From Planctomycetota bacterium (GTDB taxonomy: Bacteria; Planctomycetota; Planctomycetia; Pirellulales; Pirellulaceae): a stretch of 64,000 bases of DNA. Both the position numbers and the translations under genes were made by a program. This document shows, in pieces, positions 4,824 to 47,362 of the stretch (position 1 is the first letter of the stretch; every line of letters begins with the position of its first letter). The DNA lies in NCBI GenBank assembly GCA_026692905.1, contig JAPLNL010000033.1, positions 1 to 64,000 of the forward strand. The letters run 5' to 3'. Below the pieces are notes generated by a model. That model was not told where the DNA came from. It saw only the letters and a list, made by a program, of their open reading frames with translations, and ran no database searches.

Positions 4824-4979
4824 CCTGGGGTTGCGTTCGCGGTGCGAACTTACCCCAGGCTGAAAAATGCCATCGCATTCGCGATTGAATCGCAAGGATG
4901 CACCGTCGATGCCATCGCGTTCGCGATTGAATCGCAAGGATGCACCGTCGATGCCATCGCGTTCGCGATTGAATCGCAG
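4824..4979. repeat. Hairpin followed by 42-base tandem repeats
   Basis: A hairpin with arms starting CCTGGGG (4824-4840) and ending CCCCAGG (4844-4859) is followed by a direct repeat of period 42 starting at 4869, 4911 and 4953. There are two full copies and one 27-base partial copy; the two full copies differ at one position. Each unit contains GCGATTGAATCGC, a 6+1+6 dyad. The rest of the 4458-5072 gap holds the element at 4562-4727 and no gene that I can support. Confidence 0.85.
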
Positions 4980-7940: not shown

Positions 7941-8813
7941 ATGCCGCAAACAATGACTTCATTGATGTTTCTAATAACGCTTGCTTGCATCGCCTTCGCT
8001 TATGCTGCGGCCAGTCTGTTTGGTCCTGGGCGATACACGCCGTGGGAGCGAGTTCTGTACGCGCCCGTGTATGCCCTAGCGAGGGTGCTATGGCGAGTGG
8101 AGATCGAGTGGCGGGGTGAGCTCGGAGCGCCGACAAGTGGTTTTTCGGAGGACAGAAGGGACCGTCTTTTGGGTGATCGCATGGCCGGGGGAGCTATTTT
8201 GGTTGCGAATCATCGTTGTTCCGTGGATCCCTTTTTTGTTCAGCTAGTGGGTGGAAGGCGGGTACATTGGATGGTAGCCGGCGAGTACTTCAAGCATTTC
8301 TTGTTTGGCCCGATCCTGCGATCGTTTCAAGCGATTCCAACCAATCGGGGTGGCGTAGACACGGCATCCACGAAACGAGCCATTGCGTTAGCCAAGAGTG
8401 GACGGTTTGTCGGAATGTTTCCAGAGGGTCGCATCAATCGCACCGACAGCCCATTGCTCACCATTCGGCCAGGTGCTGCAATAGTGGCACAGCGAGCCAA
8501 TGTGCCACTGGTGCCGATTTGGATCGAGGGTGCGCCTGCGGGTTGGGCGGTCTATAGCGCCTTGTTTATACCGGCCCGAGTTCGGATTATCGTAGGGACC
8601 CCAGAGCGCTTTGAGGCAAATGGTCAAGAATTGGCCGCATCGTCGAATACAGTGAATGAGGCTGGAGAACTTGAAAATGTGTCATATGATCGTACACAAT
8701 CGAGAAACGATGCCGTCGCATGGCTCTCCCGCGTGATGGGGAAATCGTTGAGAATGGGTGGTCACTCACCAGACGATGTTGGGATAGCAGGGAAAAATTG
8801 GGTGGACAATTAG
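7941..8813 (+). CDS. 1-acyl-sn-glycerol-3-phosphate acyltransferase family (PlsC-like)
   Basis: PlsC-type enzymes transfer an acyl chain to lysophosphatidic acid at the inner face of the membrane, giving phosphatidic acid. An N-terminal hydrophobic helix (FLITLACIAFAYAAASLF) is followed by the acyltransferase motif NHRCSVD (HX4D), the FPEGRINR block and VPLVPIWIEGAP. The order and spacing fit the LPLAT/PlsC superfamily, but the exact acceptor is not shown. The 290 residues are longer than typical PlsC because of a C-terminal tail after residue 230 with no known motif. The next gene starts 43 bases downstream, so it may be the first gene of the PspA-associated group. Confidence 0.9.
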   Translation: MPQTMTSLMFLITLACIAFAYAAASLFGPGRYTPWERVLYAPVYALARVLWRVEIEWRGELGAPTSGFSEDRRDRLLGDRMAGGAILVANHRCSVDPFFVQLVGGRRVHWMVAGEYFKHFLFGPILRSFQAIPTNRGGVDTASTKRAIALAKSGRFVGMFPEGRINRTDSPLLTIRPGAAIVAQRANVPLVPIWIEGAPAGWAVYSALFIPARVRIIVGTPERFEANGQELAASSNTVNEAGELENVSYDRTQSRNDAVAWLSRVMGKSLRMGGHSPDDVGIAGKNWVDN

Positions 8814-8856: not shown

Positions 8857-10392
8857 GTGTCGAAAACAAAAATCATACTGGCTGCACTTGTTTGGTTGGT
8901 CGTGTTGGCTGTGGGCGTTTCGATTTGGAAACTGGTAATCGATCCGGTTCGCGCTCAAAAGAGCCAAGCCGAAGCGAAAAAACAAGTGGAAGCTGCGGTC
9001 GCGGCCACGACTGGAACCAGTCTTTTTAGCCAAGAGATATCGATTGGGGTGGATAGCTTTTCGGGTTATGCCATTTTTCGAACGACCGACTTTCAAACCC
9101 AGCTATCGAATCGAGGTATCAAACTCAAACTCGTCGATGATGGTGCCGACTACTCAGCCCGAGCGACAGCCCTAGAGAAAGGCACATTGCATTTTGCGTT
9201 GTTCCCGGCCGATGCTTTGCTGAAGGCGTTTTCCAACCTCGACTATCCGCCGGCCACCATCATTGCGGTCATCGATGAAACGCGAGGGGCGGATGCAATG
9301 TTGGCTTACAAAAAGAAATATGAGAACGTCGATCGACTGAACAATGCAGAGACGCGATTCGTGCTCGTTGGGGATTCGCCAAGTGAGACATTGGCGCGAG
9401 TTGTGATGCAGGACTTCGGACTGTCCCAAATCAGTAAAGACGCAATCGTCCCAATGGCTTCACCGGAGAAACTTATCGAACGATACAAGGCAGCGGATCC
9501 AACCACGAACGACGTGTATGTCGTTTGGGAACCCTTCGTCAGCCAAATGCTCAAGAATGACGCGTTGCATGTACTGACAGATAGCTCCAAGTTTACTGGC
9601 TATATTGTGGATACGCTGGTCATCAATCGCGACTTCTTGCTTAAGCACGAACCGGTCGCGGAAGCAGTGCTCGAAAGCTACTTCACCGCACTTTTCAATT
9701 ATCGCGATGCTGCGAAGCAATCGCAGTTGATGCTCGACGATGCCAAGTTGACCAAGCTGAGTTTAGAACCGGATCAAGCCGCAAAAATGGTACAGGGAAT
9801 CCAGTGGAAGAACACGCAGGAAAACTTTGCCCATTTTGGCTTGCGACCCGGTGCGATCATTCATATGGATAACATCTTGGAACGCATATCCAAGGTGTTG
9901 CTGTCGACAGGAGCAATCAAACATCCGCCGGCGGATGGCAAATGGAACCGGCTCTACTTTGACCGTCCAATGAAGCAAATCATGTCTCGCAACTTCTATC
10001 CCGGCGTTCAATCCGAATCGATACGTGAGGAGACGACGCTCAAGGAACTGACGGACAAACAATGGGGGGAATTGACCAGCATTGGCACTTTGAGTGTCCC
10101 AGAGTTGGTTTTTTCCCGAGGAAGTTCCGCGTTGACAGATCGAAGCCAGTTGATCCTCAAGGAGCTCGCGGAAAGGCTTCAGGTATGGCCGCAGTATTAT
10201 TTGTTGATTCGTGGCAATGCCTCCAATTTGGGGGATATCGAGGCAAACAAAGACCTAGCTGCCAAGCGGGCGTTGGGTGCATTACAATACCTTGAATCTG
10301 CGGGGATTCCAAAGCAGCGCATGCGAACGATTCCTGGTGATATCACTGGAGAAACGAGAGTTACGTTTGGAGTCGGTGAGATTCCGTACTGA
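8857..10392 (+). CDS. Membrane-anchored substrate-binding protein fused to an OmpA C-terminal domain
   Basis: An N-terminal membrane anchor (about 5-27, IILAALVWLVVLAVGVSIWK) leads to a periplasmic binding-protein-like region (about 55-390). This resembles the NMT1/SsuA class, as in VVWEPFVSQML and DTLVINRDFLL. An OmpA-type peptidoglycan-binding domain (about 405-511) completes it, with a strand-start VFSRGSSAL and the helix region KDLAAKRALGALQYLESAGI. The start is a GTG with a strong GAGGAGG-like site 8-14 bases upstream. No transport permease or ATPase is adjacent. It is followed after 44 bases by a membrane coiled-coil gene. A tether between inner membrane and cell wall that senses a small molecule is an inference; the ligand is unknown. 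Confidence 0.85.
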   Translation: MSKTKIILAALVWLVVLAVGVSIWKLVIDPVRAQKSQAEAKKQVEAAVAATTGTSLFSQEISIGVDSFSGYAIFRTTDFQTQLSNRGIKLKLVDDGADYSARATALEKGTLHFALFPADALLKAFSNLDYPPATIIAVIDETRGADAMLAYKKKYENVDRLNNAETRFVLVGDSPSETLARVVMQDFGLSQISKDAIVPMASPEKLIERYKAADPTTNDVYVVWEPFVSQMLKNDALHVLTDSSKFTGYIVDTLVINRDFLLKHEPVAEAVLESYFTALFNYRDAAKQSQLMLDDAKLTKLSLEPDQAAKMVQGIQWKNTQENFAHFGLRPGAIIHMDNILERISKVLLSTGAIKHPPADGKWNRLYFDRPMKQIMSRNFYPGVQSESIREETTLKELTDKQWGELTSIGTLSVPELVFSRGSSALTDRSQLILKELAERLQVWPQYYLLIRGNASNLGDIEANKDLAAKRALGALQYLESAGIPKQRMRTIPGDITGETRVTFGVGEIPY

Positions 10393-10436
10393 GTGCTCGA
10401 TCTGTTTTTCAGAAAAGCGAAGCCGGGTGCGCGCCC

Positions 10437-11219
10437 TTGTTCAAATGCGATTTGGGCCTTAAAAAATATCATTTTCAACTCGAGAACCAAACATTGAAAG
10501 ACTTTAGGTCCAGAATCGCTAGCGAACTACTTTGGGCACCATCCGTGGCATTACCCTTGGTTTCTGGCGCTTCGGCTTGGCTTATCTCCTGGGCTGCCAA
10601 CGGAGTGACTTCCCTCAATATCGCGGGCCTCGCCCTCGTATTGGGCGGAATTGGCTGGATGGCCACACGCTTCATTTTCTTCACGGACGACATTGCAGCC
10701 AAAATATTGCGCGAAGAATCCGAGAAGATTGTCAATGCCGAGGAAGAGAAACTGGATCAGCTGCAATTTCGACTTCGGTCCGACCGCGATTACCGAACCA
10801 AAGACTATCTGACGTTGCTCAGAACCTGCCGTAGCGACTTCGAGGAGTTTGCAAAGCGGCCGGGCATCGTGATTCAAAGCCAGGAGATCATCAAGCAAGT
10901 GCGACAACTGTTTTGGTCGGCAACCGATCAGCTAGAGCAATCGCTGAAACTGTATAGACTCGCCGAAAGTTTAACCGGCGACGAAAAGAAAAAGATTCAG
11001 GCTCAGCGAGAAAACACTCTCGAGGAAATAAGAGTTAGTATCGACCACATGCAGTCTGCGGTAAAGCACTATCAAGAACTAATGAACAAGGAGCAACAGA
11101 GCGACTTGGGCAGTTTGCGAGACGAACTGGATGCATCCCTTCGAATTGCAAAGCGCACGGAGGAACGCATGCGCGAACTGGAGGGCTCAATCGATTACGA
11201 TGCAAACTTGAAAAACTAA
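10437..11219 (+). CDS. Two-helix membrane protein with long C-terminal coiled coil, unknown function
   Basis: I do not recognise a family. Two adjacent hydrophobic segments (about 35-57 and 62-82, ending in GGIGWMATRFIFF) form a hairpin in the inner membrane. About 170 charged, helical residues follow with heptad-like spacing (EEEKLDQLQFRLRS, LRDELDASLRIAKRTEERMREL), predicted to face the cytoplasm. The start is uncertain: TTG at 10437 or TTG at 10494, neither with a convincing ribosome site. It sits between the SBP-OmpA gene and the PspA-like gene, so it may anchor or recruit the PspA-like protein, a role played by PspB/PspC in proteobacteria. Confidence 0.7.
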   Translation: MFKCDLGLKKYHFQLENQTLKDFRSRIASELLWAPSVALPLVSGASAWLISWAANGVTSLNIAGLALVLGGIGWMATRFIFFTDDIAAKILREESEKIVNAEEEKLDQLQFRLRSDRDYRTKDYLTLLRTCRSDFEEFAKRPGIVIQSQEIIKQVRQLFWSATDQLEQSLKLYRLAESLTGDEKKKIQAQRENTLEEIRVSIDHMQSAVKHYQELMNKEQQSDLGSLRDELDASLRIAKRTEERMRELEGSIDYDANLKN

Positions 11220-11310
11220 AATCGCGGGGCAGCTCGTGCTGTTGGGCGTCGTATTGTCAACCATAACCTTTTACCCATTTCAATAGACCATTAACCGGAG
11301 TAGATTTTTA

Positions 11311-12120
11311 ATGTTCAGAGCTATTGGCCGTTTCTTTCGTGCGATCGGATACATGTTCACCGGCAAAGTGAATTCAGCTGCCGATTCGATGAGCAACAAT
11401 CCAACCGTGATCTCAGCTACCTTCGATAAGATCATCGAAGAAAAGAAGAAGCGGCTCAATGAGTACAAAGATGCGATCAGCGCCATGATCGCTCAGGAAG
11501 AGAGCAAAAAGGACAAGCTCTCAACTCTGACGGCAGAGGTCGAGAAGCTTGAGAAGCTCAAGTCGGGGGCAGCCGCCCGCGCAAAGCAGATCGCAGACAA
11601 GTACAACGGCGATGCAACTGCGGTTCGCAACGATCCGGAGTACCTCAAGTGCCAGTCGGCCTACAAAGACTTCACCAGCACATTGGCGGAAAAACAACAA
11701 AGGGCTCACGAACTGGAAAACGACTTGAAGCAGTTGATGAGCAACGTCAATGGTCACAAGAGTCAAATTCAATCCTTGATGCGCGACTTGGACAAGCTCA
11801 AAGAAGAGAAGCACGATGCGGTTGCAGACATTCTTTCGGCAACAGAGGAAAAGCAAATTGCGGACATGGTCAACGGTATTTCCAATGACCGAACGAATGA
11901 AGAATTGCACCGTTTGCGAGAGTTGCGACAAAAGGCTGGCGCCAACGCGAGAATTTCGCGTGAGCTTGCAGGGATGGACAATAAGAAAGCGGAATCCGAA
12001 TTCTTGGAGTACGCTCAAAAGAGCGCAGCCGATGACGAGTTCGACGCACTGATCGGCTTATCTGCGAAAAAGGAATCGACCGAATCCGCAGCCAAAGAAT
12101 CGAAGATTCCAGAGGCCTAA
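11311..12120 (+). CDS. PspA/IM30-like (ESCRT-III superfamily) protein
   Basis: The protein is almost wholly alpha-helical and charged. It has a short amphipathic N-terminal helix (FRAIGRFFRAIGYMFTGK) like the membrane-inserting helix of PspA and Vipp1/IM30, then a long coiled hairpin (about 45-200). The NNPTVISATFDKIIEEKKKRL segment matches the PspA helix 1-2 region in character. PspA proteins oligomerise on damaged or curved membranes. The 269 residues exceed the usual 220-230 by a C-terminal extension (after about 215) that is acidic and low in complexity. Assignment rests on architecture and local pattern, not a clear signature. The ATG at 11311 has a CGGAG site upstream. Confidence 0.72.
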   Translation: MFRAIGRFFRAIGYMFTGKVNSAADSMSNNPTVISATFDKIIEEKKKRLNEYKDAISAMIAQEESKKDKLSTLTAEVEKLEKLKSGAAARAKQIADKYNGDATAVRNDPEYLKCQSAYKDFTSTLAEKQQRAHELENDLKQLMSNVNGHKSQIQSLMRDLDKLKEEKHDAVADILSATEEKQIADMVNGISNDRTNEELHRLRELRQKAGANARISRELAGMDNKKAESEFLEYAQKSAADDEFDALIGLSAKKESTESAAKESKIPEA

Positions 12121-12160
12121 TGTGGCACCTATGCGCATCGCCGCGTAATTTACGGGATAA

Positions 12161-12232
12161 TTAGCCGGCGGGCGCTAGCCCCGGTTTCCAAGATCGCTCG
12201 ACATTCGTCGAGAACCGCGGCTAGCGCCGTCG
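12161..12232. repeat. REP-like hairpin element, family A, copy 2
   Basis: Arms TTAGCCGGCGGGCGCTAGCC and GGCTAGCGCCGTCG surround the CTCGAC-ATTC-GTCGAG stem, here in the orientation opposite to the copy at 29063. It lies between the PspA-like gene and the SBP lipoprotein gene. Confidence 0.8.
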
Positions 12233-12240
12233 TAATGCTC

Positions 12241-12304
12241 ACATCTTTTTGACTTTGCTCCCCCCGCCCCCCTCTCCCCGAAGCGGGGCGAGGGGGAGTA
12301 ATCG
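12241..12304. repeat. GC-rich hairpin repeat
   Basis: A T-rich leader (ATCTTTTTGACTTTGCTCC) precedes a C-rich/G-rich hairpin around CCCCGAAGCGGGGCGAGGGG. The same leader plus hairpin recurs at 17322-17392 and, reversed, at the left edge of the window. It could terminate transcription between the PspA-like gene and the following lipoprotein gene, but lacks a T-run after the stem. Confidence 0.65.
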
Positions 12305-12355
12305 CCCTAGTTAACGGGCTAATTCACTCCAAATTCTTTACGAAAGTACTCAACG

Positions 12356-13426
12356 ATGAAACGAATCAATTGCCTGAAATGGATTACGCTACTCGCGGTA
12401 TCCTCTGCTTTTGTCGGTTGCGAAAGCAAGCCTGCGAACAACGCTGCAAAACCAACTGCTGCACCGAAGTTCATGTTGGCTTGGAGCGAATACCCATCCT
12501 GGAGCATTTTCGGGGTGGCAAGCGACGTGGGGCTTATCGATGGCGAAGCTGGAAAAATGGGATCCATCGAAAAGAAACATAACGTTGATATCGTCCTTAA
12601 GCTGGTTGACTACGATAGTTGCATTTCCCTTTACGGCAATTCCGAAGCCGATGCAGTGTGTATCACCAACATCGACATCCTCGGGCCGGCTGCCTCGCGA
12701 AAGAGCGTTGCAATCATGCCGACTTCGACTTCGAACGGAGCTGATGCGTGTATTGTTTCCGGAATCGACTCAGTCGATGCTTTGGCTGGCAAGTCGACGC
12801 ATGGGTTGGAGAAGAGCGTGTCCCAGTATTGCTTCGACCGATGCTTGGTCAAGCTCGATCAAGATCCCTCGAAATTTCCCTTCTTGAACATGGACCCCGA
12901 AAAAGCGTCGCAGGCTTTCGAGCAAAAGACAGGCAACATGCAGTCGATCATGGTTTGGAACCCCTATGTCATGCAATCGCTCGCGCGACGTCCTGATGCG
13001 AAAGTGCTGTTTGACTCTTCGGCTATTCCAGAAGAGATCATCGACATGGTTGTGGTCGGTGCAGATTCGCTAAAGAAACCAGGTGGAAAAGACTTTGCGG
13101 CAGCCATTTTGGAAACCTTCTACGCCATGAACAAGCGGATGGCAGATCCGGCGACCTCCGACAAAACACTTATGGGCATCGGCGAAAAATTTGCAAAACT
13201 GGAACTTGCCGACATGAAAAAGGTCGTGACGCAAACCCGATTCTATGGCGAACCTTCAGAGGCGATCGCTTTGTTTGGAAGCGACAAGTTTCGCAAGGAA
13301 ACCATGCCAGTCGTCAGCAAGTTTTGTGAGAAGTATGGATTGACACCAAAGCCAACCCCCTTGTCCTTCGGAACGGGTGAGGGAATGGTCGACTTTGACG
13401 ATTCGTTTCTCAAAGCTGTCAAGTAA
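12356..13426 (+). CDS. Substrate-binding lipoprotein, NMT1/SsuA-like
   Basis: A lipoprotein signal (MKRINCLKWITLLAVSSAFVGC, lipobox VGC) is followed by a two-lobed periplasmic binding-protein fold: LAWSEYPSWSIFGVASDVGLI near the start, VDYDSCISLYGNSEADAVCITN in the ligand region, and SIMVWNPYVMQSL later. The last segment resembles VYVVWEPFVSQML of the SBP-OmpA protein at 8857-10392, and both continue into a DSS...D(M/T)(V/L)V block, so the two are probably paralogues. Such proteins usually serve nitrate, sulfonate or taurine ABC importers, but no permease or ATPase gene is present nearby. The ligand is unknown. Confidence 0.85.
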   Translation: MKRINCLKWITLLAVSSAFVGCESKPANNAAKPTAAPKFMLAWSEYPSWSIFGVASDVGLIDGEAGKMGSIEKKHNVDIVLKLVDYDSCISLYGNSEADAVCITNIDILGPAASRKSVAIMPTSTSNGADACIVSGIDSVDALAGKSTHGLEKSVSQYCFDRCLVKLDQDPSKFPFLNMDPEKASQAFEQKTGNMQSIMVWNPYVMQSLARRPDAKVLFDSSAIPEEIIDMVVVGADSLKKPGGKDFAAAILETFYAMNKRMADPATSDKTLMGIGEKFAKLELADMKKVVTQTRFYGEPSEAIALFGSDKFRKETMPVVSKFCEKYGLTPKPTPLSFGTGEGMVDFDDSFLKAVK

Positions 13427-13446: not shown

Positions 13447-13610
13447 ACCCTCCCGCTGTAAACATCTTTGCAAAGTCAATTCCATTGCAAACCTTAGGGA
13501 GGGCGAGGCTCCTGCCGAGCCAACGGTGCAAAGGTTCGGCAGGAGCCTCACCGTCCCGAGCAATGAATGACTTAGTAAAATCGTTGGAAACATGTTTACA
13601 GCGGTAGGGT
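13447..13610. repeat. Nested inverted repeat of about 165 bases
   Basis: Outer arms ACCCTCCCGCTGTAAACAT (13447-13465) and ATGTTTACAGCGGTAGGGT (13591-13610) match except for one extra base. Inside, GAGGCTCCTGCCGA (13505-13518) and TCGGCAGGAGCCTC (13536-13549) form a perfect inner stem. No open frame of note is inside. The structure resembles a small non-autonomous element, but no target-site duplication was established. Confidence 0.75.
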
Positions 13611-13710
13611 GAAGTGCCAACAACTATGGCACAAGTCAGTTCACCCTCCCCGGGCCGAAGGCCCGACCCTCCCCGAGCCTCCCCGACCCTCCCCGAGGGA
13701 GGGTGACTTT
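13611..13710. repeat. CACCCTCCC-type repeat, copy inverted relative to 17682-17743
   Basis: Bases 13611-13672 are, apart from a few mismatches, the reverse complement of 17682-17743. The repeat contains the stem GGGCCGAAGGCCC and is followed by degenerate iterations of CCTCCCCGA up to about 13710. The two copies flank the GlnE-like gene. Confidence 0.8.
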
Positions 13711-13793: not shown

Positions 13794-13851
13794 GTGGGAT
13801 AGGCTTCCAGCCTGTCGATACTGCGTTTGACAGGCTGGAAGCCTATCCCAC
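13794..13851. repeat. Perfect 23-base inverted repeat
   Basis: Arms 13794-13816 and 13829-13851 are exactly complementary (GTGGGATAGGCTTCCAGCC... and its reverse complement) around a 12-base loop. It could form a strong RNA hairpin or be a small mobile palindrome. The rest of the 13427-14168 gap has no supported gene; the open frame 13888-14088 lacks any family features. Confidence 0.9.
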
Positions 13852-14091
13852 ATCCTCAGACTCAGGTTTTTTAATCAAGGTCAATTAGTGAAAACGGCAC
13901 TAGGGCAAGACGACTTGGTTCGGGCGCGGCCATTTGTGCGTCCATTCTCGATTCAAACTGTAACCGGCAAATTTGTAGCAGGTCCGAACGCATTCAAAAA
14001 ACACCTCCCCTCAGGTAAGATAATGCGGTTGTTTCCACAACACGCGAGATCGTCTTGCGTTGGGTTTTCAGTCAATACCGTTCAATGATTT

Positions 14092-14156
14092 GTTTAACAG
14101 TCAGCCGAAGGCTTACTCGGCACCGTTGGAAGTACGCCTACGCCTGACTGTTAAAC
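14092..14156. repeat. 13-base inverted repeat just upstream of the GlnE-like gene
   Basis: GTTTAACAGTCAG (14092-14104) pairs exactly with CTGACTGTTAAAC (14144-14156), 12 bases before the first possible start codon of the downstream gene. If transcribed it would form a leader hairpin, otherwise it could be a protein-binding dyad. Confidence 0.75.
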
Positions 14157-14168
14157 GAATTTTCATCA

Positions 14169-18736: not shown

Positions 18737-21700
18737 TTAGATTCTACGTTTTCTCGTGGATATTCGCTCTTCCTCGAGTTGAGTGTATGCGGCGAGCCAA
18801 GCAGCGTCGTCCAATTCAGATCGAACCATTTCCTTCGATAGAAGTACCGAGTCAAACGAAGAGTCATGAGGCTCGCGTGCCGACTCGCCCTCGCCGCCCG
18901 CGCTTCCGTTGATCGTATTGATGATCGAAAGAACATCGAGCGGACTGATCGCACCGTCGCCGTCGACATCATAGTCAGGCAAGTCAAGCGTGCTGGCGGG
19001 TCTTGGGAACAGCAATTGAGTTCTCCCCTCATTGACCGCATTGATAATTGCTAGCGCGTCCAATGGGTTAACACCGTCAACCCGATTGACATCCTGAGGG
19101 TTGAGCCGGTTTTGCCAAGGGGTCCTGTTCGAGATTCGGTTCACCGTAATGTTTAAGTTGTAAGACCTGCCATCAGCGCCAACCTCCGTGACAATAATGG
19201 GAACGGAAATCTGAAGTGGGTCGGTTTCGCTAACAAACTTCCCGGGCGCCAGGATCAATTTACCATCCTGAATCGCAAATCGGTCATCACTGGTAAGGAT
19301 CGTGTAATTTTGTCCGACATCTTGATCGGCGATCGAAATGGCTCCAAGGCTCAGTTCCGTTACGTTCGATAGCACCTTAGGCGTCGCAACAGAAGCTGCT
19401 GTAGGTGGGTCGTTGGCATCTAAGATGGAGATAGCAATAGTTTTTCGAGTCTGACGTTGCGGTGTACCTGAATCCTGGGCAATCACGACAATAGAATCGA
19501 CCGCGCTTCGTTCGAAATCAAAGAGTCCTGGACTATTCAATGACAGGTCGCCGGTCGTGGGGTTGATCGTGAATCTTGTATCGCTGCTCGGCAACGAGAA
19601 GCGGATCGTCTGACTGGAATCTCCATCGATCGCAGTTATTTTTGAGAACGAAGTACCCGCCACTTGGCGTTCGGAGAGAGAGATCGGTCCACTTGTAATT
19701 TGTGGATCGAATTCATTGACGTCTGTTACATTCAGAGTAAGCGAGGAGGTTGTCGTCAGTGGAGGAAGACCGTCGTCGAATGCGTCGACAAAGAATTGAT
19801 AGGAGGCCGCGGACTCGTGATCCAGCGATGCGTCAGGCTTAAGTGAAAGTCGCCCGGTGTTGCCATCTAACTTGAACAAGGTAGGTGGAGTTCCATTGAA
19901 ACGAAAACGAACTCGGTTGGTGGTGTCCTTATCTGGGGCCACTAAGAAACCGATGTCCGCGCCACCCAGGGTTGACTCAGGGATATTAAAAACGGTCGGT
20001 CTCAGGCCTGGTGCAAACTCATTCACGTCAAGAACTTCAATCGTTTTTGTCAGTCTAAGCGACAAAGGAGGCGTGCCACTGTCGGTCACTTGAATTTGGA
20101 TGTCCACCAAAGGCGTTTCTTCGAAGTTGAGCCTATTCCCGGAAGCCAGAAAAAGTTGGTTTCCAATAATTGCGAATCGCTGATCAAGCACTTGCCAAGT
20201 GAACTGGTCGCTCCGGTCCTTGTCTGTCGCGAACACGGTTCCAATGAAAACCCCAGTCGCATTCTCAGTCACCGTTGTGCCTATTAGTTCGATATTGGAT
20301 GGAGTGTCGTTGACATTGATGACAGACAACTGAAAGGGCAAAGTCGTAAACAGTCCCGCAGCGTCAGCGGCCTTTATCAACAGACTGTAGTCACCCACCT
20401 CCTCGTTGGTCGGGATGCCTATCAATTGACTTGTTGTTTCATCAAACGAAAGCCATGTAGGTGGTGGATTGCCGTTGGCTGAAATGATCGTGTAGCTCAA
20501 TGTCGCGTCATCCACGTCGGTGAACCATCCAGCTGGGATAGTCAAGCTAAATAAGTCGTCTTGGTTGACGCTAAAGGATTGGGGGGGAACTGTAGTTACC
20601 GGAGGATCGTTTACCGGCGAAATTTGAATGCTGATGCTCGCTCCTAACAAAGCGATTGGCCCATTCGAAGTAGCGTCGGCAACGTTGATTAGAGCTCTAC
20701 TGGACGTGGTAAAGGGACCAACATAGGAGTTATCTAGTGCTCGATAGCCAATAGGAATGGGGGTTCCGAAATAGTTTTTAGCTGGCAAAAACCGGAGCGA
20801 TGTTGATGCCGCTAAAACCAGACTATTCGCTGGACTAACGCTGCCAATGGGCAACCAAACGATCGAATTGAGGGAGTATTGCCAAACCCCAGTTGTCGAT
20901 GGGGCCGAGTTGGAGCTAACCGCGATTCCAGAAAGAGAACTTGAACGGTCGGGATCTTGAAAGGATGGACCGACTAGTTGCGTAATCGTTCGCCCTGCAG
21001 GATTTAGATTGTCTTCGCTAATCGTTGTTAAGGAGGCGTTGCCAGAAACAGGGGCGTCGTTGACTGGAATGACATTGACCAGAACCGTAGCTCGGTTGCT
21101 CGCTCCATTTAGCCCATTATCAAGGAATGCGGTCACCGTTCGCGGGGTAGGGGAAGGATCCTCACTTGTGTTCACAAAGGAAATCTGTGTCAAAAGCCGC
21201 TTGATGGCAGATGCATTTACCGCGGAATTGAGAGTGATGTTCAGCGATTGCCCTGGCCCTGAGTAATTGCCGATGAGTGCTCCGCCTAGCAGAATCTGAT
21301 CCCCACTGGTCGAGATTTCGTCCGGGGCCGTACCTGTATTGATAATATTGAGAACATCACCAGCCTCGACGTTACTGCCAATCATTACCGACAGCGACCC
21401 ACCGGCGTAGCTCGTGACGTTGAGATCCGTCACCGTGGCAGCGGGGGCAATGGCTACCGGCGCACTGTTTTCCGTATAGGTCACAATAGGACCCAAGTTG
21501 ATATCAATAACTTTCGTTGCAGGTACGATCGTGAAGTTGGTATTTGAAATATCAAAAAAGATATTCGAAGTTCCTTGAACGCGTACGCGCGCACTGGTGG
21601 TGGGAGTGTTTGGAATACGAACGATGGCAGTGCCGTTGTTTGGAGTCCTGGCCGCAACAATGTTCGGGTATGTTAGACCGCCGTCGGTAGAAATGCTGAT

Positions 21701-23479
21701 GTCGACCAATGCAGAGTTGATACCGTTTCCTGTTGTTCCCGCAACGTTCCACTCGATCGTTTGGAAAGTCAATCCTTCCCATGTGACATTTGTATTTGGA
21801 GTTACGACGGCGAACGGTGCTCCGGTATCAATAACCGAAATTCGCATGTTGTCATCGTCGAACGCTCCGCCAGCTGCGCGATTGTCGCGAGCTACCACAC
21901 GGAAATTGAGTTGTCGCGTAGTGGTCGGCAATCGCTCGCCAATGACCGTGGTGTTGTTCACGAGATCGGTCAAACGTGGCAATGTTCGAGTCGGATTGGC
22001 AGTTGGCGAAAAAACGCGAAACAGTGGGCCGACACCGTCGTCGCCAAGGGTCACCGAGCGAGCAGGTCCAAGGTCCCGTTGCTGCCAATCGTAAGTCAGT
22101 TGATCGCCGGCATTGAGATCGGATCCGGTCGCGGTCAATTCGAAGGGAGTACGTGCAGGAATCACGTAATCCGCCCCAGCACTGATCGTGGGGATGGAGT
22201 TGCCGCTGAGCACCCTAGTGCCGACGTTTGGAATGACCGAATCAACATGCTGCACGATTTCATCCAAGCTCACCGAGTGGAAATACGGATCGCTGTGTGG
22301 CTGCAGATCGTCAGAATTGCAAATGCCTGCGTAAGCTTGAATCGTAGTGCCGCTGCCGGGTTCGTAAGCTGTGCTGCCATTGCGTGCTGGGCAATTGCCA
22401 TCAACGCCATTGAAAGAGTGGTTGCCGCCAAATTGATGGCCCATTTCGTGAGCTACGAAGTCAACATAAAAATCGTCGCCAATCGGAGTTGGTAGGCCTG
22501 TCACTCCTTGCGCCTTTCTCGAGTTCACGCCGACGCTGCCAAGCGAAGCGACGCCTCCGCCACCGGTGGAAAAAACGTGGCCAATATCGTAGTTGGCATT
22601 GCCGATTATTCTGTCGACGATGGCTTGGTTTTCGCCCAACATTGTGCCACCGTTGTTGTTCGTATACCCGTCGGTGTTTGCATCGGTAAAGACGAGTCTG
22701 TCATTGTTCGCAACCAATTGAAATGCGATCGAAAGCTCCGTTTGATAGATGCCGGAGACACGATTCACGGCGGTAACAATGGCCGCTTGTCCCGACGCGA
22801 CAGTACCACCGTGGAATTTTGTATATTCCCCGGTCGCAGCCACAGCCATGCGATACGTTCTTAATTCGGTACCGCTACGGGGTTGTGATGAACCTAAATT
22901 GGATGGGTTGCTTCCGGAGGAGATGCCGCCGCCCTTTTGTTGGCCGATGTCTGCCTCAAGCTCTTGAAAGCCAGGGGCCTCTTTTGCGGAGCCTCTGGCA
23001 TAAACAGCATAGAAGTCCGAGGGGAGGTTGGAATACGGATCGACATAGTAGGTTCCCTCGGGAGAAATGACTTGTGCGTGAAAGCCCTGCGGAGTTAAAT
23101 CCAACCGAATCGTCGACGCCGCGTTATCGATTCCTTGACCAGCATATGTCTGAATCTCAGGAAACTTGGCCGCCAGTTCCGGTGCCATAATCGAGGAAAC
23201 GAAAATGCTGAAACGCTCCATGGTCCCATTCGGTTTAGGGACACTCAAGATCGAACTTTCCGTAGGCACCGGACTTAGATGGGCGGGAGCGGCCGCGAGT
23301 TGACTTCGAAGAGCATTGGAATCAAGTGTTGCCAGCTTGAAGTCTCGTGTACGTAGGAACGAGGGCAAACCAGCCGGGATATCCGAGTTATCGGCGTAAT
23401 TCCAGAGCCCTGCAAGCATTTTTCGTGCCTCCAGTTGTTCTATCGTGAGTCGCTTCTTTGTTTTGGAATGGGTTGTCAT
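18737..23479 (-). CDS. Giant exported metalloprotease with cadherin-like repeats and dockerin-like C-terminus
   Basis: About 1580 residues. The N-terminus carries the planctomycete export-associated motif KKRLTIEQLEARKMLAG in place of a classical signal peptide. A reprolysin/M12B-type catalytic domain has FVAHEMGHQFGGNH, with zinc ligands His344, His348 and His354 and catalytic Glu345. After that come beta-sandwich and cadherin-like modules (repeated DVNEFxPxI, ILDANDPP, VTDVNEFDP; about 450-1430). Two calcium-loop dockerin-type repeats (DVNRVDGVNPLDALAIIN and DVDGDGAISPLDVLSIIN, about 1455-1525) lie near the end. I start at base 23479 (MTTHSKTKK) with a GGGAAG site, not at the further upstream methionine. 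A large extracellular, calcium-dependent, surface-attached protease is likely. Confidence 0.9.
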   Translation of the reverse strand: MTTHSKTKKRLTIEQLEARKMLAGLWNYADNSDIPAGLPSFLRTRDFKLATLDSNALRSQLAAAPAHLSPVPTESSILSVPKPNGTMERFSIFVSSIMAPELAAKFPEIQTYAGQGIDNAASTIRLDLTPQGFHAQVISPEGTYYVDPYSNLPSDFYAVYARGSAKEAPGFQELEADIGQQKGGGISSGSNPSNLGSSQPRSGTELRTYRMAVAATGEYTKFHGGTVASGQAAIVTAVNRVSGIYQTELSIAFQLVANNDRLVFTDANTDGYTNNNGGTMLGENQAIVDRIIGNANYDIGHVFSTGGGGVASLGSVGVNSRKAQGVTGLPTPIGDDFYVDFVAHEMGHQFGGNHSFNGVDGNCPARNGSTAYEPGSGTTIQAYAGICNSDDLQPHSDPYFHSVSLDEIVQHVDSVIPNVGTRVLSGNSIPTISAGADYVIPARTPFELTATGSDLNAGDQLTYDWQQRDLGPARSVTLGDDGVGPLFRVFSPTANPTRTLPRLTDLVNNTTVIGERLPTTTRQLNFRVVARDNRAAGGAFDDDNMRISVIDTGAPFAVVTPNTNVTWEGLTFQTIEWNVAGTTGNGINSALVDISISTDGGLTYPNIVAARTPNNGTAIVRIPNTPTTSARVRVQGTSNIFFDISNTNFTIVPATKVIDINLGPIVTYTENSAPVAIAPAATVTDLNVTSYAGGSLSVMIGSNVEAGDVLNIINTGTAPDEISTSGDQILLGGALIGNYSGPGQSLNITLNSAVNASAIKRLLTQISFVNTSEDPSPTPRTVTAFLDNGLNGASNRATVLVNVIPVNDAPVSGNASLTTISEDNLNPAGRTITQLVGPSFQDPDRSSSLSGIAVSSNSAPSTTGVWQYSLNSIVWLPIGSVSPANSLVLAASTSLRFLPAKNYFGTPIPIGYRALDNSYVGPFTTSSRALINVADATSNGPIALLGASISIQISPVNDPPVTTVPPQSFSVNQDDLFSLTIPAGWFTDVDDATLSYTIISANGNPPPTWLSFDETTSQLIGIPTNEEVGDYSLLIKAADAAGLFTTLPFQLSVINVNDTPSNIELIGTTVTENATGVFIGTVFATDKDRSDQFTWQVLDQRFAIIGNQLFLASGNRLNFEETPLVDIQIQVTDSGTPPLSLRLTKTIEVLDVNEFAPGLRPTVFNIPESTLGGADIGFLVAPDKDTTNRVRFRFNGTPPTLFKLDGNTGRLSLKPDASLDHESAASYQFFVDAFDDGLPPLTTTSSLTLNVTDVNEFDPQITSGPISLSERQVAGTSFSKITAIDGDSSQTIRFSLPSSDTRFTINPTTGDLSLNSPGLFDFERSAVDSIVVIAQDSGTPQRQTRKTIAISILDANDPPTAASVATPKVLSNVTELSLGAISIADQDVGQNYTILTSDDRFAIQDGKLILAPGKFVSETDPLQISVPIIVTEVGADGRSYNLNITVNRISNRTPWQNRLNPQDVNRVDGVNPLDALAIINAVNEGRTQLLFPRPASTLDLPDYDVDGDGAISPLDVLSIINTINGSAGGEGESAREPHDSSFDSVLLSKEMVRSELDDAAWLAAYTQLEEERISTRKRRI

Positions 23480-29968: not shown

Positions 29969-31351
29969 GTGATGCAATGCGACAATCGAGCTAACGTCCG
30001 TTGCCGCTCCGCTTGCCAGGAAATCCCTTTGAACGCTAGTCTTTTTCGTGCCGACATTCAACGTTGCGGCCGATCCGAACTCCAATGCATCCAACTTGAG
30101 AAACTGAATGCGCTCTTAGCCAAAGTCCTGCCGAATAATCGATACTACCAAGAACGGTTTGGCTGTTCTGCGCTGCGGCTGGACTCGCTTGCCGACTGGT
30201 CCAAGATGCCAACCTCGAAAAAGTCGGATTGGTTGGGAGATGACGCGAGTGGTCTAGCGATTCACCATTCCTTTCCACAGGACCAGTACCGGCGTTACCA
30301 TCGAACCAGTGGAACCAAGGGCAAACCGATGGTGATCTTGGACACTGCTGAAGACTGGCTGTGGTGGCTTGCGACGTGGCAGTATGTTCTGGATGCAAGC
30401 GGGATCCAGGCACACGATCGGATCATGATGGCTTTTTCGTTTGGTCCGTTTATCGGTTTTTGGAGCGCACACGATGCATGTTTGCAGCGAGGCTGTATGG
30501 TCATCCCGTGTGGAGGCATGTCGACTGCGGCTCGAATCGATTTGATTCAGTCAGCCAAACCGACGGTGCTTTTCAGCACTCCGAGTTATGCTTTGCATAT
30601 GGCGGACGACGCGGCCAATCGCGGGATCGATTTGGTCAGCTCGTCGATTCGTCAAGTCTTCGTCGCGGGCGAACCGGGCGGTAGTGTCCCCGCGATTCGT
30701 ACCAAGATCGAGTCTGCCTTTGGTGCGCAGGTTATGGACCACGCAGGAGCGACTGAGGTGGGCCCATGGGGCTTTGGCTCTCGCGATGGTCGAGCCATCC
30801 ACGTAATTGAAAGCGAGTTCATCGCCGAGTTCTTGCCTTGGGAGTCGGGGCCAGTTGAGGAGAATAAACCAGCAGGATCGGGGCTTGGCAGTGGCGTTTT
30901 CGAATTGGTACTGACGGCGTTGGGCCGGGTTGGCGCTCCCGTTCTCCGTTATCGAACAGGGGACCTTGTTCGCCCGACGTTTGTGGAGGGAAGTGACTGC
31001 AACTTTGTGAGGCTAGAATCGGGAGTCGTTGGACGAACCGATGACATGATTGTGGTGCGGGGCGTGAACATTTTTCCGTCGAGCATTGATACAATCGTAC
31101 GCTCGTTCCCGGCGATAACGGAGTACAGGCTAACTGTGTCCAAGCGAGGAGCGATGGATGAGTTGTTACTGGAGTTTGAGTCGAGCGAAGACACGGAACG
31201 AAATGTCTCAGAGGAGCTGGCCGAAAAGTTATCGATTCAACTCAACTTGAGATTTGAAGTGACCCGAGTCGACAAAGGAGTACTTCCCCGTTCGGAGGGC
31301 AAAGCGAGACGTATGTTTGACTTGAGAACGGCAGGCATAAAACGCCCATAG
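29969..31351 (+). CDS. Phenylacetate-CoA ligase (PaaK)-like adenylate-forming enzyme
   Basis: The protein has the PaaK layout: KLNALLAKVLPNNRYYQERFG near the start, the phosphate loop YHRTSGTKGKPM (usually TSGTTGxP), the acyl-acceptor region DHAGATEVGPWGFG, YRTGDLVRP and the C-terminal GRTDDMIVVRGVNIFPSSID. It should activate a carboxylic acid as acyl-AMP and then acyl-CoA; the acid is unknown. The start is uncertain: GTG 29969 or ATG 29972 precede about 20 atypical residues, and a later TTG near 30029 would also fit. The last five codons and the stop lie inside a 49-base tandem repeat. Confidence 0.87.
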   Translation: MMQCDNRANVRCRSACQEIPLNASLFRADIQRCGRSELQCIQLEKLNALLAKVLPNNRYYQERFGCSALRLDSLADWSKMPTSKKSDWLGDDASGLAIHHSFPQDQYRRYHRTSGTKGKPMVILDTAEDWLWWLATWQYVLDASGIQAHDRIMMAFSFGPFIGFWSAHDACLQRGCMVIPCGGMSTAARIDLIQSAKPTVLFSTPSYALHMADDAANRGIDLVSSSIRQVFVAGEPGGSVPAIRTKIESAFGAQVMDHAGATEVGPWGFGSRDGRAIHVIESEFIAEFLPWESGPVEENKPAGSGLGSGVFELVLTALGRVGAPVLRYRTGDLVRPTFVEGSDCNFVRLESGVVGRTDDMIVVRGVNIFPSSIDTIVRSFPAITEYRLTVSKRGAMDELLLEFESSEDTERNVSEELAEKLSIQLNLRFEVTRVDKGVLPRSEGKARRMFDLRTAGIKRP

Positions 31352-31437
31352 CACGACGCGCAAGCTAGTGAATTGAGCGAAGGGCATAAAACGCCCATAG
31401 CACGACGCGCAAGCTAGTGAATTGAGCAAAGGGCATG
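31334..31437. repeat. 49-base tandem duplication spanning the PaaK-like stop codon
   Basis: Two copies start at 31334 and 31383, differing at only a base or two, and a third partial copy (GGGCAT) follows. Each contains GCACGACGCGCAAGCTAG, also found at 1038, 45848 and 47174. The first copy encodes the final residues GIKRP and the TAG of the upstream gene. Confidence 0.9.
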
Positions 31438-47137: not shown

Positions 47138-47330
47138 AGCACGACCCATAAGCGGGTGAATTTGGCGTCGAATTCACTAGCTTGCGCGTCGTGCTAGGAA
47201 AAAGAGCGTCGAATTCACTAGCTTGCGCGTCGTGCTAGGAAAAAGAGCGTCGAATTCACTAGCTTGCGCGTCGTGCTAGGAAAAAGAGTGAATTTGATGT
47301 CGAATTCACTAGCTTGCGCGTCGTGCTAGG
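47138..47330. repeat. Tandem array of the GCTTGCGCGTCGTGC repeat (four units)
   Basis: Units start at 47165, 47206, 47247 and 47296. The first three have a period of exactly 41 bases; the fourth is preceded by a variant spacer. Each contains CACTAGCTTGCGCGTCGTGC. A half copy in the opposite orientation (CTAGCACGAC) lies at 47138. There is no open frame through the array. It lies between divergent genes, close to the start of the GH10-like gene (33 bases). Confidence 0.92.
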
Positions 47331-47362
47331 AAAACAGCTGCCTCTGGACACTGGAAAGGAGA

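Follow-up and report, generated by a model that had tools for sequence, protein, structure and literature searches.

A PspA-like envelope locus of a planctomycete as one fragment of a dispersed nine-gene operon

Operons that combine PspA with transmembrane (TM)-bearing Snf7 homologues, an AAA+ protein, an ATP-binding cassette (ABC) ATPase, a permease and a PBPB-OmpA protein are listed in the survey of Ravi et al. 2024 (PMC11237479; example OGG56892.1), whose passages on these operons give the N-terminal AAA copy of the AAA+ protein as inactive and treat the disassembly of bacterial PspA polymers as an open question. Intact operons of this type, with PspA, AAA+, a solute-binding protein (SBP) fused to an OmpA-like domain, permease, ABC ATPase and a TM coiled-coil protein, were found in the same taxonomic order as the genome analysed here (G029, G043 and others). 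The present analysis concerns four genes at 8857–13426 of a 64,000-nucleotide stretch of DNA from a Planctomycetota bacterium of the Pirellula group (assembly GCA_026692905.1, contig JAPLNL010000033.1, positions 1–64,000 of the forward strand), referred to as the window. A sequence-only reading had described these genes as a PspA-type envelope module with paired binding proteins and no transporter, and had left open whether a published survey lists such a set; the passages of Ravi et al. on these operons list this kind. The four genes are one part of a system of nine that other planctomycetes encode in a single operon; the window genome retains all nine, across four loci.

The four open reading frames were confirmed on one strand at the positions first read for them, and neither a permease nor an ABC ATPase is encoded within the module, whose features are as follows (CC, coiled-coil protein).

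8857–10392, + strand: SBP-OmpA1, 511 residues, GTG start; anchored by an N-terminal TM segment, with a type-II binding-protein domain in the periplasm and an OmpA-like domain at the C-terminus
10111–10329, + strand: OmpA-like domain of SBP-OmpA1 (residues 419–491), PF00691 40.6 bits
10213–10224, + strand: GNAS at the site of the canonical GHTD of OmpA-like domains; Arg R471 kept
10494–11219, + strand: CC, 241 residues; a pair of hydrophobic helices followed by a long coiled coil that is predicted to be cytoplasmic
11311–12120, + strand: divergent PspA/IM30-like protein, 269 residues
12037–12060, + strand: EFDALIGL, last-helix motif conserved across the PspA-like family
12103–12117, + strand: KIPEA, conserved C-terminal tail preceded by a linker that varies; candidate motif for docking of the AAA+ protein
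12171–12228, strand not assigned: inverted repeat in the 235-base gap upstream of SBP2
12356–13426, + strand: SBP2, 356 residues; NitT/TauT-type binding lipoprotein, lipobox Cys22, TIGR03427-like

The complete arrangement was observed in genome G153 (L248), where one strand carries SBP-OmpA2, vWA, SBP-OmpA1, CC, PspA-like, SBP2, permease, ABC ATPase and AAA+ genes in this order. Gene order is the same in G063 (L246), the permease not being called separately, and near-complete operons with the AAA+ gene at the opposite end were found in G180 (L245) and in the cultured Botrimarina colliarenosi Pla108 (L233). Partial operons at L229 and L234 hold the permease and ABC ATPase within them, and in Ca. 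Hydrogenedentota (L236) the genes for SBP-OmpA2, vWA, SBP-OmpA1, CC and the PspA-like protein run up to a contig end; the neighbourhood is conserved, with additional genes, in other families and in that phylum. In the window genome, SBP-OmpA2 and vWA are adjacent on contig C30, the AAA+ orthologue is located on contig C18, and contig C100 carries, at approximately 21115–22897, the pair of permease and ABC ATPase, with identities of 78% and 69% to their in-operon relatives. None of the missing parts is near the end of its contig, so the genes are dispersed rather than separated by a break in the assembly; the close relative G021 has the same four-way split. The lack of a transporter is therefore correct for the module itself and does not extend to the whole system. 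In relatives the genes for permease and ABC ATPase come directly after SBP2, and in the window genome both are still encoded in trans; a true absence was rejected.

Orthologues of each of the four genes were detected in 27 of 60 relatives. They are neighbours in some (G021, G022, G007) and split in others; the SBP set and the PspA set lie 90 kb apart in G030 and on different contigs in G023 and G024, and in these three genomes CC is duplicated, each set holding one copy. SBP2 is followed by the ABC permease in G019, G007, G023, G030 and G050, with the ABC ATPase following in the last three, and in G030 the PspA-like gene is followed by a gene for a large AAA+ protein. Nearly all SBP-bearing relatives also possess an orthologous permease. 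The proposal of a conserved envelope module, centred on a PspA-type protein and including a pair of related binding proteins, is borne out by the adjacency kept in many relatives. Against the nearest relative, dN/dS was 0.031 for SBP-OmpA1, 0.112 for CC, 0.031 for the PspA-like gene and 0.090 for SBP2, which indicates functional genes under strong purifying selection. The CC frame is open from 10437, and its start was placed at the TTG at 10494 because a product of approximately 241 residues is common to its relatives. SBP2, being downstream of the inverted repeat, may form a separate transcript; promoter and terminator scans gave no signal above the shuffled level.

Within the 60 relatives, 27 genomes have the PspA-like gene, and 26 of these also have a strong AAA+ orthologue, the exception being G011, where the AAA+ gene is present in fragments; G016, a fragmented assembly, has AAA+ and lacks the PspA-like gene. 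G006 and G026 have neither the SBPs nor the orthologous permease and still retain PspA-like, CC and AAA+ genes. Across 199 genomes of the phylum, the PspA-like family occurred in 8 (E ≤ 1e-12), spanning five families, and a strong AAA+ orthologue (at least 537 bits) in the same 8. An exact 8/8 overlap would arise by chance at ~2e-14 if genomes were independent; they are not, and this figure therefore overstates the significance. The active AAA domain scored 57.7 bits against PF00004, with CDC48 and CdvC as the best named relatives, and carries the motifs GPIGGGKT, FVDEAD and RRPGR. Only this C-terminal domain (residues 366–485), where the Walker motifs are found, was detected by Pfam; by analogy with the passage of Ravi et al. 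(PMC11237479) on their AAA+ protein, the N-terminal half would be an inactive AAA copy.

The product of 11311–12120 is likely a diverged member of the PspA/ESCRT-III superfamily. Its predicted structure has the helix order of PspA, and Foldseek against the PDB placed Vipp1/PspA chains at ranks 1–8, nearly full length, at probability 0.97–1.00 and modest E of ~4e-3 to 2e-2. A profile of diverse family members scored 28.2 against the PspA of the related operon, where reversed profiles and 60 block-shuffled profiles reached at most 24.0; the hhalign probability was 16%. Close members matched PF04012 at E ≤ 0.01 in 15 of 23 cases (best 2.3e-6), and a separate, bona fide PspA in the same genome scores 135.7 bits. 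A PDB sequence search with the family profile returned Vipp1/PspA at E 0.2–1 only, amid chance coiled coils. The VIA-align list was uninformative, as coiled coils of SMC, dynein-stalk, chemoreceptor and PI3K proteins took up its places. Nearly all of 42 PspA-like sequences (41 by the count of the (I/L)PE tail) end in (I/L)PE plus at most one residue; one sequence has VPEA, and the Poribacteria sequence ends in ELPL. The linker in front varies in length and sequence. A docking or pulling handle would be expected to look like this, with the tail conserved, the linker variable and an AAA+ protein always present alongside, and the tail may dock the AAA+ protein.

CC scored 34.0 against the TM coiled-coil protein encoded in the related operon, compared to a maximum of 22.9 in 60 shuffles, at a probability of 34–41%, and is thus a candidate for a Snf7-type partner. 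A paralogous relationship to PspA was rejected, as the profiles share no similarity. Assignment of CC by fold was likewise rejected, since the model is weak (predicted local distance difference test, pLDDT, 65; TM part below 50) and gave no convincing PDB match.

Both binding proteins matched TIGR03427, SBP2 at E 4e-42 and SBP-OmpA1 at E 3e-8, each under the model's cut-off. SBP2 starts with a lipoprotein signal containing AFVGC, and SBP-OmpA1 with a hydrophobic stretch that forms its TM anchor. The likeness of VVWEPFVSQML to MVWNPYVMQSL, noticed in the sequence-only reading, reflects true homology, as profile–profile comparison of the two proteins gave E 1.8e-9 and 96% probability over ~230 residues. 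SBP2, permease and ATPase could all be assigned to the NitT/TauT importer family, at family level only. The OmpA domain ascribed to the anchored binding protein is also real (PF00691 cut-off 27.2 bits); that it holds the wall is doubtful. In OmpA of A. baumannii the Asp of the GHTD motif and an Arg bind diaminopimelate (PMC6572160), and in SBP-OmpA1 this Asp is replaced in every lineage seen (GNAS, GNVR, GHAR, GNTR) with the Arg kept. SBP-OmpA2 retains RGHSD or RGHAD, and judging from these motifs peptidoglycan binding is therefore more likely the task of SBP-OmpA2 than of SBP-OmpA1.

Based on gene content, operon structure, co-occurrence, retention in trans, motifs and selection, we consider it fairly probable that the nine dispersed genes couple AAA+-driven remodelling of a PspA-like coat to a NitT/TauT-type importer. 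SBP2, SBP-OmpA1 and SBP-OmpA2 would capture a small periplasmic solute and serve the ABC importer encoded at another locus. At the cytoplasmic face, the two-TM CC would recruit the PspA-like protein, which would form an ESCRT-III-like membrane coat. The AAA+ motor, to judge from the sequences, probably works on this membrane-coating protein; with its N-terminal AAA domain inactive and its C-terminal one active, it would grip the (I/L)PE tail and disassemble or remodel the coat. Solute occupancy or envelope state, relayed by the membrane proteins, would then set coat assembly.

Several points weigh against this account. The PspA-like protein of the window scores 23.9 bits against PF04012, below the cut-off of 33.9, and the profile search with PF04012 gave no match in distant members; the PspA/IM30-like label of the sequence-only reading stands on its eight best structural matches and falls short on this score. 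The structural model is of moderate quality (pLDDT 70): its long hairpin is predicted well and its ends poorly. Coiled coils also yield weak and readily confounded structural matches. No MIT domain was found on the AAA+ protein in the Pfam search, AAA being the only match. SBP2, permease and ATPase all score under equivalog cut-offs, and naming a ligand from any of them was rejected. All of the interactions, the ligand, the formation of a coat and its remodelling are deduced from the genes, and in the window lineage the components, being dispersed, may have ceased to work together.

Among the alternatives, the one that survives best, unlikely as we hold it to be, is that two independent systems merely adjoin each other, one a NitT/TauT importer of the ordinary kind with SBPs as accessories, the other a membrane-repair set of PspA-like protein, CC and AAA+. 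In addition to the 90 kb separation in G030, six genomes (G006, G026, G138, G203, G170, G185) have PspA-like and AAA+ genes with no SBPs at the locus. In the last four only these two genes are linked, and in G138, G170 and G203 flotillin/YqiJ-like or DUF3686 ATPase genes adjoin the pair, flotillin being identified from gene order and sequence appearance with no Pfam match. The joint operon nevertheless recurs in several families and another phylum, its composition is matched by that of a distantly related operon, and the duplicated CC provides one copy for each set. Less probable again is that the binding proteins are transporter-free sensors, with SBP-OmpA1 bridging inner membrane and wall and the PspA-like protein responding to the signal. 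The local lack of permease and ABC ATPase, the TM anchor and OmpA-like domain of SBP-OmpA1 and the separation of the sets in some relatives would fit such sensors; orthologous permease and ABC ATPase genes are, however, kept in the genome, the permease in nearly all SBP-bearing relatives, both directly follow SBP2 in sister operons, and the wall-binding Asp is absent. That the 11311–12120 product is a generic coiled coil unrelated to PspA, as the PF04012 scores, the 16% hhalign probability and the coiled coils heading the VIA-align list might suggest, is very improbable given the PspA helix order, the full-length Vipp1/PspA chains at Foldseek ranks 1–8, a profile score above all 60 block-shuffled and reversed controls, and a gene that fills the PspA slot next to the AAA+ gene.

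Returning to the coupled nine-gene system, a bolder and more tentative proposal is that it contains a bacterial pair like ESCRT-III and Vps4, in which a diverged PspA polymer with an (I/L)PE docking tail would be disassembled by an exclusive double-AAA+ ATPase and controlled by periplasmic solute binding through CC, as adaptor, and the ABC importer. ATPases dedicated to coat disassembly are often described as limited to archaea and eukaryotes; if the proposal is true, one is present in planctomycetes and Hydrogenedentota. The most valuable lead is the pairing of the PspA-like protein, with its conserved tail, and the AAA+ protein exclusive to it, which is testable in Botrimarina colliarenosi Pla108. 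A warning also follows, in that a transporter-less locus may simply be one piece of a dispersed operon.

Other features were observed around the locus. A gene for a PlsC-like 1-acyl-glycerol-3-phosphate acyltransferase (7941–8813, + strand) ends 43 bases upstream of SBP-OmpA1; its position is kept in G021, G022, G017, G009 and G002 and not in other genus members. Downstream of SBP2, in the gap where relatives carry the permease, three intergenic inverted repeats (13497–13557, 13794–13851 and 14088–14160; arms 23–30 bases, loops 11–13 bases) look like dispersed palindromic elements, and a 10-base tandem repeat of CCCGACCCTC spans 13662–13696. Elsewhere in the window, a 42-base unit is repeated in tandem at 4867–4978 (2.7 copies, 98%), and tandem repeats at the distant sites 47165–47334 and 31334–31436 share CACTAGCTTGCGCGTCGTGCTA in opposite orientations. 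In other planctomycete families, PspA-like and AAA+ genes stand beside clusters of flotillin-like, YqiJ-like and giant DUF3686 ATPase genes (L249 9740–17949, L251 1–7910, L247 9526–13537), an arrangement resembling another PspA association in the literature. A protein of 1746 residues (L207 7719–12959), the start of which is like the DUF3686 ATPase of L249, is encoded in G022 ~1 kb from the dispersed permease and ABC ATPase.

Compared to known systems, SBP2, permease and ATPase are of the families of NitT/TauT ABC importers (TauC/SsuC/NrtB, TIGR03427), from which the system differs in that its SBPs are also OmpA-fused and tied to PspA/AAA+, and in scoring below equivalog cut-offs. With PspA/Vipp1/IM30 (PF04012) the PspA-like protein shares length, helix order and best structural matches, and it departs from them in its sub-cut-off score and in its own EFDxLIGL motif and (I/L)PE tail. 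The TelA/XpaC stress operon may also combine SBP-OmpA and two-TM coiled-coil proteins; identity with that module was rejected, as there was no PF05816 (TelA) match in the genome and no literature support. In common with ESCRT-III/Vps4 of archaea and eukaryotes are a candidate ESCRT-III-superfamily polymer, a dedicated AAA+ of classical type and a short C-terminal tail motif, whereas the AAA+ here has an inactive AAA domain in front, no MIT domain was found on it, and the system is coupled to a solute-binding/ABC set. The operons in the passages of Ravi et al. (PMC11237479) consist of the same component classes, including a binding domain fused to OmpA, and that survey may already include the branch of the window. 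Relative to those operons the window family is far diverged and has further members in vWA, a second SBP-OmpA and a lipoprotein SBP. Its genes are spread over four loci in the window lineage, with permease and ABC ATPase in trans in the window genome. New are the dispersal with full retention, these extra partners, the (I/L)PE tail on the PspA-like protein and the loss of the peptidoglycan-binding Asp in SBP-OmpA1. With the same composition, AAA+ proteins ~26% identical between the two families and a CC match above shuffles, the system is therefore a divergent, dispersed variant of the published operon kind.

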